Shown here: positions 29,315 to 34,929 of the stretch, piece after piece
How the letters are laid out: every line of letters begins with the position of its first letter
How positions within the stretch are numbered: the first letter of the stretch is position 1
From: Arcobacter nitrofigilis DSM 7299
GTDB lineage: Bacteria > Campylobacterota > Campylobacteria > Campylobacterales > Arcobacteraceae
Assembly (NCBI RefSeq): GCF_000092245.1
Contig: NC_014166.1
Span: forward strand, 1,364,001-1,428,000
Reading direction: 5' to 3'
Length of the DNA: 64,000 nucleotides
Program-made: the position numbers and the translations under genes
Notes under the pieces: model-generated
Told to the model about the DNA's origin: nothing
The model's input: the letters and a program-made list of their open reading frames with translations, nothing else
Databases searched by the model: none

Positions 29315-31729
29315 CTAAATTTTATTAAAATCAATTGTAATCTCATCCATTTGTTCTTCACTCAAATATTTATTTGCATAATCTAGGTGAAGATTATTAT
29401 CAACAAAAAATTTAACAATATCTCTATCTAAATGTTGATCTTTTATCATAAATGATAAAATTCTAAGAGAAGTATTAAGAGAATTTGCTTTTTTGTATGG
29501 TCTATCATTTGCAGTTAGTGCTTCAAATACATCTGCAACTGCAAGTATTTTGTCTTCTATTGTCATAGGTAAATCAAGAATTTCAGGAGCTGAATAACCA
29601 CCACCTTTTACCATTTTATGATGAGAACCAGCAATTACAGGAACTCTTCTTAATTTTTTAGGGAAAGGCATAGTCTCTAACATTTTATAAGATACTGTAA
29701 CATGGTTGTTTATTATATCTCTTTCTTCATTTGTCAAAGTACCTTTTTTGATACATAAATTATATACTTCATTTTCACTGAGTAAGTTTGTATCTTCGCC
29801 ATTTATTTTAAGTTTTTGTTTTGCAATCTCTTTTATTCTCTCAATTTTTTCATCTTCCATGAATTCACCACCCGTGTTACATGTGATTACAAAATCAAGA
29901 TCTTCTTCTAAAGAAGTAATTTTATTTTGAAAAGCTATTGTTAATTGTTCTTTTTCTTTTATAGAAGAGGTTTTTGAAAAGGTTTTGTAATACTCTAATT
30001 CATAATCTTTTTTAACAATTTCAAATTTTGCTTTTACTGTATTTACTCTATCATAAATAGTTTCTAACTTTTTACCTTTATCTACAACATATTCAGGTGT
30101 AACAATTTTTCCAATATCATGAAGCCAAGCAGCTCTACTCATTTGTTTTATCTCATCTTGGGTAAAATTAATATCTTTAAATACTGTAGTGTCATCATTT
30201 ATTGCTTTTGTTAGAGTTTCTGCTATTTCTGCAACTCTATTAATATGACCACCTGTGTATTCAGATTTTTCACCAATGGCTGTCGCAATTGATTTAATAA
30301 AAGAGTCCAATAAGTTTTCTAATTCTGTTATTAATCTATTATTAGTAATTGAAACAGCAGCTTGTGATGCCATTGATTCTATTAGTTGTTTATCTTCATT
30401 TGTAAAAGTGATAGTATTTCCATCATCATCCATTTTATTTAATAATTGAAGTACTCCTATTACGTCATCATCATGGTTTTTCATGGGAATTACAAGCATT
30501 GATTTTGTTCTATATCCTGTTGATTCATCAAACTTTTTTGTACCTTCAAAATTAAAATCTTTGGTTTCATAAACATCAGGGATATTTATTAGTTTACCTT
30601 CTAGAGCACAAAGGGCTGCAACCATTTGTTCATTGGGTGTTCCATCTTCTTTGTATAGAGGTAACTCTGGCCATGTAATTTTACCTTCTGTTCCTCCCAT
30701 TTTTATGCTTAATGAGTCAGTTTGCACAACTTGAAACTTCAATCTCTTTTCATCTTCTGTTACTAAATAAAGTGTTCCTCCATCAGCATCAGAAAACTCT
30801 TTTGCACCTAAAAGAATCTTTTCCATTAGAACATCAAAGTTTTTTTCACTAGTAAGTGATTTACCAATGTCAATTAATTTTTTAATCTCTTTTTTGTTTA
30901 TATTAGATCTATTGGCATTGTATGATAAGTATTCATTAGATAATGAAATTACATCGCCATCATCTAATATCTTACCTTCATTAAGAAGTAAGTTATAATC
31001 TTGAATCTCTTTTCTTAAAATTTTGCTATAGGCAGGTTTTATGTGATTTATATAAACTCTTATATCATCTCTTTTTAGTTTTTTTAATTGTTCACTTAAT
31101 AAGGCAGGAGTTAAATGCTTACTATCAAAGGCTAATTGCTTAAATTTTGATGGAAAAGATACATCAATTATTATAGACTTTATAGTTAAATCATTATTTA
31201 TAGTTTCCCAAATGGAATCACAACAATAAGTATCTGATGAAAAAAGTAGAGAATTTTCATTTTTTGTAATTATGTATCCACAACTAGAATTTGTATGATT
31301 GTTTTTTATTACAGTAATTTTTGTATCATCTTCTAATATAATTGTTTCATCTATTTCAATTGGTTTAAAAACAATAGCTTTTAATTTTTTATTAAGTAAT
31401 TCTATTTCAGAAAAGTCAGGCCAAATTTCCCAATTTAAGATATAATTTCGTAAGTTTTCTAAGGTTTTACTTGTTCCATAGATAGTAATTGGCTTTTTTC
31501 TTTTTTCATAAAAGATATCAAGTAGATATGGTATATCATTTAAGTGATCTAAGTGGGAATGAGTTAAAAATATATTATCAATGTATTCAGCTTTAGTTCC
31601 AAGTCCTTTTACTATATTACCAGCATCAATAACACTATTTGTATTTATTTGTATACAAGTGGTATTTGAATCTAGGCTTTTACTACCATAAGCACCTAAG
31701 ACTTTTATAGAGTTTTTCATTACTTTCAT
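29315..31729 (-). CDS. MBL-fold / GAF / HD-GYP-type signalling phosphodiesterase
   Basis: I start at ATG 31729, which has GGAG six bases upstream; the longest frame begins with TTG 31741. The 804-residue protein has three modules. Residues ~8-270 form a metallo-beta-lactamase fold with THSHLDH, close to class II cyclic-nucleotide phosphodiesterases. Residues ~285-460 form a GAF domain with FDESTGYRTKSML, reminiscent of cyclic-nucleotide-binding GAFs. Residues ~465-790 form an HD-GYP-type domain with GGHINRV, WLHDIGK, a ~110-residue charged insert, then HHKMVKGGGYS and ADVFEALTANDRPY. The signature GYP is changed to GYS and HHE to HHK. No TM is seen. Confidence 0.85.
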   Translation of the reverse strand: MKVMKNSIKVLGAYGSKSLDSNTTCIQINTNSVIDAGNIVKGLGTKAEYIDNIFLTHSHLDHLNDIPYLLDIFYEKRKKPITIYGTSKTLENLRNYILNWEIWPDFSEIELLNKKLKAIVFKPIEIDETIILEDDTKITVIKNNHTNSSCGYIITKNENSLLFSSDTYCCDSIWETINNDLTIKSIIIDVSFPSKFKQLAFDSKHLTPALLSEQLKKLKRDDIRVYINHIKPAYSKILRKEIQDYNLLLNEGKILDDGDVISLSNEYLSYNANRSNINKKEIKKLIDIGKSLTSEKNFDVLMEKILLGAKEFSDADGGTLYLVTEDEKRLKFQVVQTDSLSIKMGGTEGKITWPELPLYKEDGTPNEQMVAALCALEGKLINIPDVYETKDFNFEGTKKFDESTGYRTKSMLVIPMKNHDDDVIGVLQLLNKMDDDGNTITFTNEDKQLIESMASQAAVSITNNRLITELENLLDSFIKSIATAIGEKSEYTGGHINRVAEIAETLTKAINDDTTVFKDINFTQDEIKQMSRAAWLHDIGKIVTPEYVVDKGKKLETIYDRVNTVKAKFEIVKKDYELEYYKTFSKTSSIKEKEQLTIAFQNKITSLEEDLDFVITCNTGGEFMEDEKIERIKEIAKQKLKINGEDTNLLSENEVYNLCIKKGTLTNEERDIINNHVTVSYKMLETMPFPKKLRRVPVIAGSHHKMVKGGGYSAPEILDLPMTIEDKILAVADVFEALTANDRPYKKANSLNTSLRILSFMIKDQHLDRDIVKFFVDNNLHLDYANKYLSEEQMDEITIDFNKI

Positions 31730-31849
31730 TATCATCTCCAATTATTCTTAACAGATTATATCAAATAATTTTTAAAACAATTTTCTTTTTGATACTTCTA
31801 GCCTTAAGTAAGGTAAATTTAATTAATAAAACCTTAAGCTGACTTTAAA

Positions 31850-31855
31850 TATAAT
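31850..31855 (+). promoter_or_regulatory. -10 box of the alpha ribosomal operon
   Basis: TATAAT in the context TTTAAATATAATCC lies 175 bases before the rpmJ ATG. It is the best -10 in the divergent gap and implies a leader of about 168 bases. CTTAAG repeats at about 31804 and 31834 flank the region upstream. Confidence 0.6.
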
Positions 31856-31861
31856 CCAATT

Positions 31862-32030
31862 CCATTTTTCAACCACAAAAGAGTTTTTTATAAAATTTTT
31901 GTGTTTTATAAAGAGTTGGTAAGAAGAGCGCAAGTGGACATAAGTATTATAGATAAGTGAAGCAGTTCACTTTTTATTCACGCTTCTTGCCTGTTGAAAA
32001 TGTGGATAATAAACACAAAGGAAAGCAACT
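31862..32030 (+). promoter_or_regulatory. structured mRNA leader of rpmJ-rpsM-rpsK-rpsD-rpoA-rplQ
   Basis: Hand folding shows four pairings. Hairpin 1 is CACAAAA 31874-31880 with TTTTGTG 31897-31903. A long stem pairs GGTAAGAAG 31918-31926 with CTTCTTGCC 31983-31991 (one G-U). An inner hairpin pairs AAGTGAA 31955-31961 with TTCACTT 31966-31972 around GCAG. Alternatively TTTGTGTTT 31898-31906 pairs with AAACACAAA 32011-32019, which reaches into the rpmJ Shine-Dalgarno AAAGGAAAG. Hairpin 1 and the last pairing exclude each other. The layout suggests autoregulation by a ribosomal protein such as S4, encoded in the operon, but this is inference. Confidence 0.5.
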
Positions 32031-32144
32031 ATGAAAGTTAGAGCTTCGGTAAAAAAAATGTGTGACAAATGTAAAGTTGTCAAAAGAAGAGGGATCGTAA
32101 GAGTTATTTGCGAGAACAAAAAACACAAACAAAGACAAGGATAA
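32031..32144 (+). CDS. rpmJ: 50S ribosomal protein L36
   Basis: A 37-residue basic protein, [11 protein letters not shown]..., with the zinc-ribbon CDKC near residue 11, then C27 and H32, the standard L36 C-x2-C...C-x4-H form. It is preceded by AAAGGAAAG and ends two bases before the rpsM ATG. Length and sequence are textbook for the non-paralogous zinc-containing L36. Confidence 0.95.
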
Positions 32145-32146
32145 TC

Positions 32147-32509
32147 ATGGCAAGAATTGCGGGTGTTGATTTACCAAACAAGAAAAGAATGGAATACGCA
32201 TTAACGTATATTTTTGGAATTGGGTTATATAACTCAAGATTAATCCTTGATGCTACTGGAATATCTTATGACAAAAGAGCTCATGAGTTAACAGAAGATG
32301 AAGCAGCAGCTATCAGACTAGAAATCCAAAAAAACTACCAAGTTGAAGGTGATCTTAGAAAAAAAGTAGCTATGGATATTAAATCACTTATGGACTTAGG
32401 TTCTTACAGAGGATTAAGACATAGAAAAGGTTTACCGTGTAGAGGGCAAAAAACTAAAACTAATGCTCGAACTAGAAAAGGTAAAAAAAGAACTGTTGGT
32501 GCAGCGTAA
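32147..32509 (+). CDS. rpsM: 30S ribosomal protein S13
   Basis: The start is ATG 32147 ([14 protein letters not shown]); the frame extends upstream but that part overlaps rpmJ. The 120-residue protein has the S13 helix-two-turn-helix region, ALTYIFGIG, and the C-terminal [18 protein letters not shown] tail that contacts tRNA and 16S rRNA in the head of the small subunit. It is the second gene of the alpha operon. Confidence 0.97.
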
Positions 32510-32518
32510 GGATAAACA

Positions 32519-32911
32519 ATGGCAAAAAGAAAAGTAACTAGAAAAAAAGTAGTAAAAAAGAATATTGCTGATGGTATCGTTCATATTGCGGCATCATTTA
32601 ACAATACTATGGTAACAATAACTGATAGAGCTGGAAATGCAATCGCATGGAGTTCTGCTGGAAACTTAGGTTTCAAAGGTAGTAAAAAATCTACTCCTTT
32701 TGCTGCTCAAGCTGCAGTAGAAGATGCAATGGCAAAAGCAATTGAACACGGTGTCAAAAATGTTGGTATCAAAATTCAAGGACCAGGTTCAGGTAGAGAT
32801 ACAGCTGTTAAAGCTGTAGGAGCTATGGAAGGCATCAGAGTTTCATGGTTAAAGGACGTTACACCGTTACCACATAATGGTTGTAGAGCTCCTAAGAGAA
32901 GAAGAGTGTAA
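32519..32911 (+). CDS. rpsK: 30S ribosomal protein S11
   Basis: A 130-residue platform protein with the conserved [48 protein letters not shown] and C-terminal [17 protein letters not shown]. The start ATG follows an AAGGA Shine-Dalgarno, 9 bases after rpsM. It is cotranscribed in the alpha operon. Confidence 0.97.
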
Positions 32912-32921
32912 GGAGTAGTAC

Positions 32922-33548
32922 ATGGCAAGATATAGAGGACCAGTAGAAAAAATCGAGAGAAGACTTGATGCAGACCTTGGATTAAAAGGTGAAAGAAGAC
33001 TTAACGGAAAATCTGCATTAGAAAAAAGACCATTCGCTCCAGGACAACACGGACAAAGAAGAACTAAACTTTCTGAGTACGGTTTACAACTAAGAGAGAA
33101 ACAAAAAGCTAAATTTATGTACGGTGTATCTGAAAAACAATTCAGAAAATACTTTAAAGAAGCAGCAAGAAGAGAAGGTAATACAGGATCTAACTTAATT
33201 ACTTTAATCGAACAAAGATTAGACAATGTTGTTTATAGAATGGGATTTGCTACAACTAGAGCAAATGCTAGACAATTTACAACTCACGGTCATATCTTAG
33301 TAGATGGACAAAAAGTTGATATCCCTTCTTTTGTAGTAAAACCAGGGCAAAAAATTGAGATTAAAGAGAAATCTAAAACTAATCCTCAAATAGTAAGAGC
33401 TTTAGAATTAACTAATCAAACAGGAATGGTTGAATGGGTTGATGTTGATAAAGACAAAGCATTTGGTATTTTTACTAGAATTCCTACAAGAGAAGAAGTA
33501 GTTATTCCTGTTGAAGAAAGATTAATCGTAGAGTTATATTCTAAATAA
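32922..33548 (+). CDS. rpsD: 30S ribosomal protein S4
   Basis: S4 is a primary 16S rRNA binder that nucleates 30S assembly. It is 208 residues with the N-terminal [27 protein letters not shown], and a central S4 RNA-binding domain ([31 protein letters not shown]). The C-terminal domain is typical. The N-terminal zinc cysteines of many S4 proteins are absent (a C-minus form). In enterobacteria S4 represses its operon by binding an mRNA pseudoknot, relevant to the leader upstream. Confidence 0.97.
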
Positions 33549-33567
33549 TAAATAAAGGTAGCAGCGT

Positions 33568-34566
33568 ATGAAAAAATTTGCAGACACTCCATTTTTACCA
33601 ACAGAAGTTGAAATCGAAGCAATCAGTGAAACTGAAGCTAAGATTTCTGCATATCCATTTGAAAGTGGTTTTGCAATTACATTAGCGCACCCATTAAGAA
33701 GACTACTTCTATCTAGCTCAGTTGGATACTCTCCAATTGCAGTTAAAATAGAAGGGGCAAGCCACGAGTTTGATTCTTTAAGAGGTATGCTAGAAGATAT
33801 TGCTATTTTTATTATCAATCTTAAAAATATTAAATTTAAAATTCTAAGTGATGAAAATCAAGTAGAAGTTGAATATTCTTTCAACGGACCTAAAGAAATA
33901 AAAGGTTCTGACTTAGTAAACTCTGATGTTGAAATTGTAAGTCCAGAAGCTCACTTAGCTACAATCAATGCTGATTGTAACTTAACTTTCTCTGTTATTA
34001 TTCAAAAAGGTATTGGTTATATGCCTTCTGAAGATATTAGAGATATGGTTTCTAGTGATTATATTCCACTTGATGCTTTCTTTACTCCAGTAAAAAAAGT
34101 TGTTTATGATATTGAAAAAATGCTAGTAGAAGACAACCCTAACTTTGAAAAAGCTGTATTTACAGTTCAAACTAATGGGCAAATTACACCAATCAATGCT
34201 TTCAAAGAAGCTGTTTCTGTAATGTATTCTCAAATGTCAGTATTCAATAAAGTATTCGATTTATCTGAAGTTACAGTTAGTGATTCAACTGAAGAACCTG
34301 TAGAATTAAAAGATTTAATTGTTAAAATTGACGATTTAAATTTAAGTGCTAGAAGTTTTAACTCTCTTGATAGAGCAGGGTTAAAATACTTAGGTGAATT
34401 AGTACTTATGAGTGAAGTAGAAGTTAAAAATATTAAAAACTTAGGAAAAAAATCTTATGACGAGATTGCTGATAAATTAGCATCTTTAGGATTCCCAGTT
34501 GAAAATACACTTCCAGAAAATATTGCATCAGCTTTAAGAAGAAAGCTAGAGCAGTTTAAAGCATAA
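33568..34566 (+). CDS. rpoA: RNA polymerase alpha subunit
   Basis: A 332-residue alpha subunit. The N-terminal dimerisation domain includes PFESGFAITLAHPLRRLLLSS and the beta/beta'-contact loops. The C-terminal domain, from about residue 245, contains LNLSARSFNSLDRAGLKYLGEL and NLGKKSYDEIADKL, the helix-hairpin-helix that contacts UP elements and activators. It follows rpsD after 19 bases. Confidence 0.97.
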   Translation: MKKFADTPFLPTEVEIEAISETEAKISAYPFESGFAITLAHPLRRLLLSSSVGYSPIAVKIEGASHEFDSLRGMLEDIAIFIINLKNIKFKILSDENQVEVEYSFNGPKEIKGSDLVNSDVEIVSPEAHLATINADCNLTFSVIIQKGIGYMPSEDIRDMVSSDYIPLDAFFTPVKKVVYDIEKMLVEDNPNFEKAVFTVQTNGQITPINAFKEAVSVMYSQMSVFNKVFDLSEVTVSDSTEEPVELKDLIVKIDDLNLSARSFNSLDRAGLKYLGELVLMSEVEVKNIKNLGKKSYDEIADKLASLGFPVENTLPENIASALRRKLEQFKA

Positions 34567-34578
34567 AAAAGGTAAATT

Positions 34579-34929
34579 ATGAGACATAAGCACGGATATA
34601 GAAAGTTAAGTAGAACTTCTTCTCATAGAAAAGCATTGTTAAAAAACATGGCAATAGCTTTAATAGAGAGAGAAAAAATCGAAACTACAGTTCCTAAAGC
34701 AAAAGAACTTAGTAGATATATTGAGAAATTAATTACAGTTTCAAGAGAACCTGATTTAAATACTCACAGATTTGTATTTGCTTCATTACAAGATAAAGAA
34801 GCTACAAAAAAAATAATTAATGAAATTGCACCAAAATACGTAGGTAGAAATGGTGGATATACTTCAATAATTAAAACAAGAATTAGAAGAGGTGATGCTA
34901 CACCTATGGCATTCATTTCATTAGTATAA
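34579..34929 (+). CDS. rplQ: 50S ribosomal protein L17
   Basis: A 116-residue protein with the standard start [25 protein letters not shown], the helix [21 protein letters not shown], and the final region [24 protein letters not shown]. It ends the alpha operon and is followed by a strong terminator. Confidence 0.97.

Follow-up and report, generated by a model that had tools for sequence, protein, structure and literature searches.

Genes and signals at the locus

The window analyzed here is a stretch of 64,000 nucleotides from Arcobacter nitrofigilis DSM 7299 (contig NC_014166.1, positions 1,364,001 to 1,428,000). It carries rpmJ-rpsM-rpsK-rpsD-rpoA-rplQ as one operon, preceded 5' of rpmJ by an intergenic region (31742-32030) beyond which the neighboring gene is divergent. 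The genes of the operon and the features of its leader, with the evidence for each, are as follows:

31850-31855, forward strand: TATAAT, -10 promoter element (read in the sequence)
31862-31873, forward strand: 5' strand of helix P0, CCAUUUUUCAAC (minimum-energy fold; P0 covariation)
31874-31881, forward strand: junction strand J0/1, purine-rich, ending in AAAG (GAAG in most families; alignment A6)
31882-31917, forward strand: hairpin P1, AGUUUUUUAUAAAAU, loop UUUUGU, GUUUUAUAAAGAGUU (fold, covariation and de novo RNAalifold)
31898-31906, forward strand: 5' strand of the pseudoknot, UUUGUGUUU, in and beside the P1 loop (own-versus-swapped and positional tests)
31918-31991, forward strand: arm P2, GGU...GCC (folds of relatives; its base covaries)
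31993-32005, forward strand: 3' strand of helix P0, GUUGAAAAUGUGG (minimum-energy fold; P0 covariation)
32011-32019, forward strand: 3' strand of the pseudoknot, AAACACAAA, overlapping the start of the Shine-Dalgarno sequence (complementarity, own-versus-swapped and positional tests)
32018-32022, forward strand: AAGGA, Shine-Dalgarno sequence of rpmJ (sequence)
32031-32144, forward strand: rpmJ (L36), with which the operon opens (translation of the open reading frame; also matched by TIGR01022 at this place in the genome of the window)
32147-34929, forward strand: rpsM, rpsK, rpsD, rpoA and rplQ, the remainder of the operon (translations; S4 search)
32922-33548, forward strand: rpsD
33568-34566, forward strand: rpoA
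34579-34929, forward strand: rplQ

From the position of the -10 element, transcription is predicted to start near 31861-31863, at the P0 5' strand. No -35 element matching this promoter was found before the leader. Of 25 sequences from relatives that we tabulated, nearly all have a TATAAT-like hexamer a few bases 5' of P0. A search of the leader for an intrinsic terminator found none. The divergent neighbor (29315-31741, reverse strand) appears, by eye, to encode a fusion of a metallo-beta-lactamase fold with GAF and HD-GYP-type domains.

A three-way junction conserved in shape

The core of the leader (31861-32030) is a three-way junction composed of the closing helix P0, the 15-bp hairpin P1 and the arm P2. 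These three elements are nested in the minimum-energy fold of 31862-32045, which leaves the P1 loop and 32006-32020 unpaired. P1 pairs 31882-31896 with 31903-31917 in its conserved register, and 31884-31896 with 31903-31915 in the minimum-energy fold. P2 varies in length from about 10 to 160 nt between genera; the long stem singled out in the preliminary description (31918-31926 with 31983-31991) is a perfect 9-bp helix and belongs to this arm. The nested energy given by RNAfold for this single sequence is only moderately below that of shuffled sequences (z -1.98), and we consider that the case for a leader structure rests on comparison across relatives and not on folding energy.

That comparison had been called for in the preliminary description, and it shows that the helices covary and that the downstream pairing keeps its complementarity as the letters change. 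A DNA search of 60 relatives found the region of the leader within the family, and the bases 5' of rpmJ were compared in over 100 genomes, the first 48 of which were folded. Most families of the order keep the same plan: P0, a (G/A)AAG strand, P1, P2 (GG...CC), the 3' strand of P0, the pseudoknot strand and the Shine-Dalgarno sequence. The nearly invariant letters are the GG/CC at the base of P2 and the AG immediately before P1. We aligned 41 core sequences, which represent more than 15 families, with MAFFT and without fitting to any structure (A6); 92.3% of cells were paired and the covariation score was 0.606, compared to at most 0.162 when the partners were slid; none of 500 shuffles scored as high. 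In this alignment compensatory double changes were present at all 14 counted pairs of P1 and at four of the six pairs at the P2 base, where the terminal GG/CC is nearly invariant. P0 had double changes at 8 of 8 pairs in a second alignment of 59 hits (A3), which was fitted to the model, is biased towards the structure and includes one spurious row; over the whole structure its 59 rows gave 0.449, compared to at most 0.139 with partners slid. De novo RNAalifold recovered P1 and P2, with double changes at 16 of 18 pairs, and exchange of the P1 3' arms between families lowered the pairing from 11.4 to 8.2 of 12. The leader is a real, conserved structured RNA in which the shape rather than the letters is kept.

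Within the P2 arm of the window lies a palindrome, GTGAAGCAGTTCAC (31957-31970), flanked by runs of A and T, which recurs intergenically in relatives. It is present once in its own genome and in zero to two exact copies in each of 20 relatives. The palindrome was noted in L031-L038, and in L031 three copies lie in a tandem of 87-bp units. We considered the inner hairpin that it forms as a repeat that shapes a switch and rejected this, as it lies in the variable P2 arm, is not conserved and has few copies.

A pseudoknot next to the rpmJ ribosome site

The preliminary description proposed that this is a leader of the alpha operon and that part of it extends to the rpmJ ribosome site. This is supported: the 3' strand of a pseudoknot overlaps the start of the Shine-Dalgarno sequence. 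The strings that it named also lie where it placed them, CACAAAA at 31874-31880, TTTGTGTTT at 31898-31906 and AAACACAAA at 32011-32019. The pairing that it drew between the last two exceeds chance, by its positional peak and by the comparison of own with swapped strands, but as a pseudoknot and not as a rival fold, because TTTGTGTTT occupies the loop of P1 together with the uppermost pairs. The two strands match at nine of nine Watson-Crick positions and could be extended into AAGGA through two U.G pairs. A 6-bp core costs one opened P1 pair and the full 9 bp about four; no more than the uppermost few pairs of the hairpin are opened. A second copy of AACACAAA lies at 32122-32129, near the end of rpmJ and 5' of the rpsM ribosome site. 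It may be a chance occurrence, because AACACAAA is somewhat overrepresented in the window (12 copies, compared to 6.5 expected).

Across 16 families, the complementarity of the loop to the downstream strand averaged 12.9 for a sequence's own strand and 10.5 for swapped strands, a value for the former that exceeds the maximum of 2000 permutations. The complementarity of the own P1 loop has a sharp peak, located 10-23 nt before the AUG in the family of the window (f1) and 19-32 nt before it when eight other families are taken together, and is low elsewhere. When loops were swapped between families this peak was absent in f1 and much lower in the other eight. The letters of the knot covary. For example, f1 has both UUUGUG/CACAAA and UUGUGAUU/AAUCACAA; CCACU/AGUGG is found in f7, f9, f10, f20 and f22, with CCGCU/AGCGG in two f10 genomes; f6 has GCACC/GGUGC and GCACU/AGUGC; f18 has UGGCACU/AGUGCCA and GGCAC/GUGCC; and f5 has GGGAA/UUCCC. 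Individual knots are short, and most shuffle tests of single genomes are non-significant (many with p between 0.05 and 0.4), whereas the combined family medians give p = 5e-4. We found no convincing knot in about a third of the f1 sequences (several genera), nor in f12, f15 and f21.

The position of the knot relative to the ribosome site also varies. It overlaps the Shine-Dalgarno sequence in the window. In other families about 20 nt separate it from the AUG, and the knot strand stands 100-431 nt from the AUG in f4 and in part of f18, f7 and f11, most of these keeping the knot. In L239, L241, L242, L244 and L055 (f4) and in L063 and L089 (f18), hundreds of bases, partly repeat-like, separate the leader RNA from the start of rpmJ, with leader and knot retained.

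Distribution of the element

We seeded a covariance model, R2, with A6, so that the window itself was outside the seed and genera of its family were inside. It superseded an earlier model, R1, which was insensitive to f6, f15 and f16; a second R1 match in G106 was dismissed as chance, as it lies inside a reading frame. In the 3.2-Mb genome of the window, R2 has a single significant match, which is this leader (46.3 bits, E 1.9e-7; the next match has E 0.3). Among 160 relatives it matches 120, which represent 40 of the 56 genera. Nearly all strong matches for which we looked up the position of rpmJ lie just 5' of that gene. In 15 of the 16 genomes examined, nearly all of them outside the seed, the match is 5' of rpmJ, family f9 being among these with 73.9-80.3 bits; the exception is G243, which has an off-site match at E 5e-4, and weak second matches (E 1e-3 to 1e-2) are located elsewhere. 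Carriers include a Sulfurovum sp. (L157) and several Campylobacterales or Campylobacteraceae metagenome-assembled genomes (L150-L154, L156). R2 found no match in the rpmJ leaders of f13 (Helicobacter-like) or f14, nor in any of the 71 S13 loci scanned, which come almost entirely from other phyla. The element is restricted to the rpmJ leaders of one order.

Comparison with known ribosomal leaders

In Escherichia coli, S4 regulates the alpha operon through an mRNA pseudoknot (PMC10931766). The E. coli element (Alpha_RBS, RF00140) resembles the leader described here in its operon, in a knot of the mRNA that reaches the first ribosome site and in presumed control by S4. The E. coli knot, however, includes the rpsM ribosome site, whereas here the loop of the P1 arm joins bases that precede the Shine-Dalgarno sequence of rpmJ. 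Alpha_RBS has no match at its gathering score in the window or in the loci of 11 relatives; its best match in the region (10.7 bits against a cut-off of 38, E 6) falls inside rpmJ/rpsM, outside the leader. The E. coli and mycobacterial leaders of S15 (rpsO) likewise place a knot at or 5' of the initiation site (PMC10931766), but they belong to another operon and another protein.

PMC7247131 also predicts S4 as the ligand of four other leaders of alpha-operon genes, in other lineages. The S4 leaders of Firmicutes, Fusobacteriales, Clostridia, Bacteroidia and Flavobacteria presented there are, as ours is predicted to be, structured 5' untranslated regions of S4 or alpha-operon genes, with S4 known or predicted by precedent. 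The leaders of Firmicutes and Fusobacteriales share a conserved GUAA that mimics 16S rRNA, which is not a conserved element of the leader described here, and the motifs of Bacteroidia and Flavobacteria are hairpins, unlike the three-way junction with a knot in the window. No S4 leader is given for Epsilonproteobacteria or Campylobacterota in the accessible text of PMC7247131.

A scan with Rfam 15, both at gathering score and with E relaxed to 10, gave no match for the leader in the window and none in relatives. Rfam was equally silent on 12 control loci of other phyla, which makes the lack of a match weak evidence that the leader is new. We found no description of this leader in the open-access literature. 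PMC6429828 covered 38 intergenic regions of Arcobacter sp. L, and 30 ribosomal leader candidates are given in PMC11109978; it is possible that the leader was sighted earlier, unnamed, in the supplements of either study. The preliminary description had anticipated a new leader architecture. The leader matches no known leader that we tested, but its layout differs from the one proposed, in which P1 and P0 were missed. What appears to be new is the architecture; the probable role is a familiar one for ribosomal leaders.

Ligand and mode of action

We favor, with moderate confidence, the interpretation that this RNA is a cis-acting autoregulatory leader of the alpha operon, with a previously undescribed architecture of a three-way junction and a knot, and that its ligand is most likely S4. 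An excess of an operon protein, most likely S4, would bind the junction and stabilize the knotted form. In this genome, where the knot abuts and partly covers the Shine-Dalgarno sequence, the knotted form would hide or strain that sequence; translation of rpmJ would fall, and that of the downstream genes would fall with it by coupling. We infer S4 by analogy with the leaders discussed above. Because rpsD is within the operon in the genomes compared and the operon is split in none of them, gene content cannot tell S4 from S13, S11, L36, L17 or RpoA. We looked among the relatives for rpsD split from rpmJ, or for a genome lacking rpmJ, as a test of the ligand and found no usable case; G044 lacks rpmJ, S13 and S4 and is probably an incomplete assembly. 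In an f13 genome (G085:C1:1486017-1486639) the rpsD match is broken into two pieces that overlap, and an in-frame TGA is present; an assembly error may be the cause. We found no convincing mimicry of 16S rRNA: R2 matches nothing in rRNA loci, and a conserved GUAA is absent from A6, the 16S h16 of the same genome carrying GCGUAAAC. A further lead, the likeness of TGAAGAA...GGGTTG to E. coli 16S h16, was dropped, as the organism's own 16S lacks it and R2 is blank in rRNA loci.

The same type of autoregulatory leader could instead respond to S13, S11, L17, L36, RpoA or a complex, which we regard as unlikely but deserving of some weight. The leader lies directly 5' of rpmJ and rpsM, the gene content of the operon favors none of the candidates, and PMC7247131 cautions that prediction of ligands by precedent is uncertain. 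However, the same source indicates that S4 alone among the proteins of the operon is established elsewhere as the ligand of multi-gene alpha-operon leaders, and that the L17 leader controls rplQ alone. It is rather improbable that the element is a ligand-free structured 5' untranslated region, acting as a constitutive stabilizer, a translation standby or processing site, or in the control of transcription or decay. A distance of 100-431 nt from the start codon in several lineages would suit such a role, being hard to square with occlusion, but the knot is at a fixed place beside the Shine-Dalgarno sequence in many families, restriction to a ribosomal protein operon fits translational regulation better and the leader has no detectable intrinsic terminator.

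The preliminary description had interpreted the locus as a switch between two mutually exclusive foldings, with TTTGTGTTT pairing either to the upstream CACAAAA or to the downstream AAACACAAA. Both complements do exist in this genome, but the upstream one is confined to L001-L003 (genus g1); it looks incidental, because other genera carry different strings there (CCATCAAAG, CCATTGAAG, CCATAAAAG and others). Such a switch would moreover need to open the long conserved P1 hairpin that lies between, whereas the downstream pairing is compatible with P0, P1 and P2, and we consider the switch highly improbable. Still less weight, indeed next to none, can be given to chance complementarity in AT-rich DNA. 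The only moderately unusual folding energy of the single sequence would be in keeping with it, but compensatory changes at every counted P1 pair and a single significant match of the model genome-wide are not.

For the autoregulatory leader that we favor, direct occlusion of the Shine-Dalgarno sequence fits this genome and not the lineages in which the knot is displaced, and it cannot be the general mechanism, because the knot is kept far from the AUG in some lineages. The lineages that have no knot likewise speak against simple occlusion throughout the order. Tentatively, and with considerable doubt, we suggest an order-wide class of ribosomal leaders of the Campylobacterota in which the knot is part of the protein-binding fold, with repression at a distance, for example by ribosome trapping, attenuation or transcript decay, where it is far from the AUG.

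Campylobacterota include important animal-associated and vent bacteria, and we found no alpha-operon leader reported for them. An RNA with clear paired elements makes the balance of ribosomal proteins and the alpha subunit of RNA polymerase directly testable. The leader would be a further RNA solution, arrived at independently, for possibly the same protein; natural variants for dissecting the mechanism are available in the lineages where the knot is displaced or lost.

A different leader in Helicobacter-like relatives

In genus g32 of f13 (L066-L070, L072-L076 and L046), the gap between infA and rpmJ contains another conserved leader, a hairpin ATAGTC...GACTAT followed by an invariant ATAAACTCAATG, for which Rfam gave no match. 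The leader of Helicobacter equorum (L155) is of the same kind as the f13 leaders. The loop of the g32 hairpin has a complement some 60 nt downstream, in letters that change between sequences (TTTGGAA/TTCCAAA, TGAAT/ATTCA and TTGAAA/TTTCAA), and this may be a second rpmJ leader of analogous kind that forms a pseudoknot.
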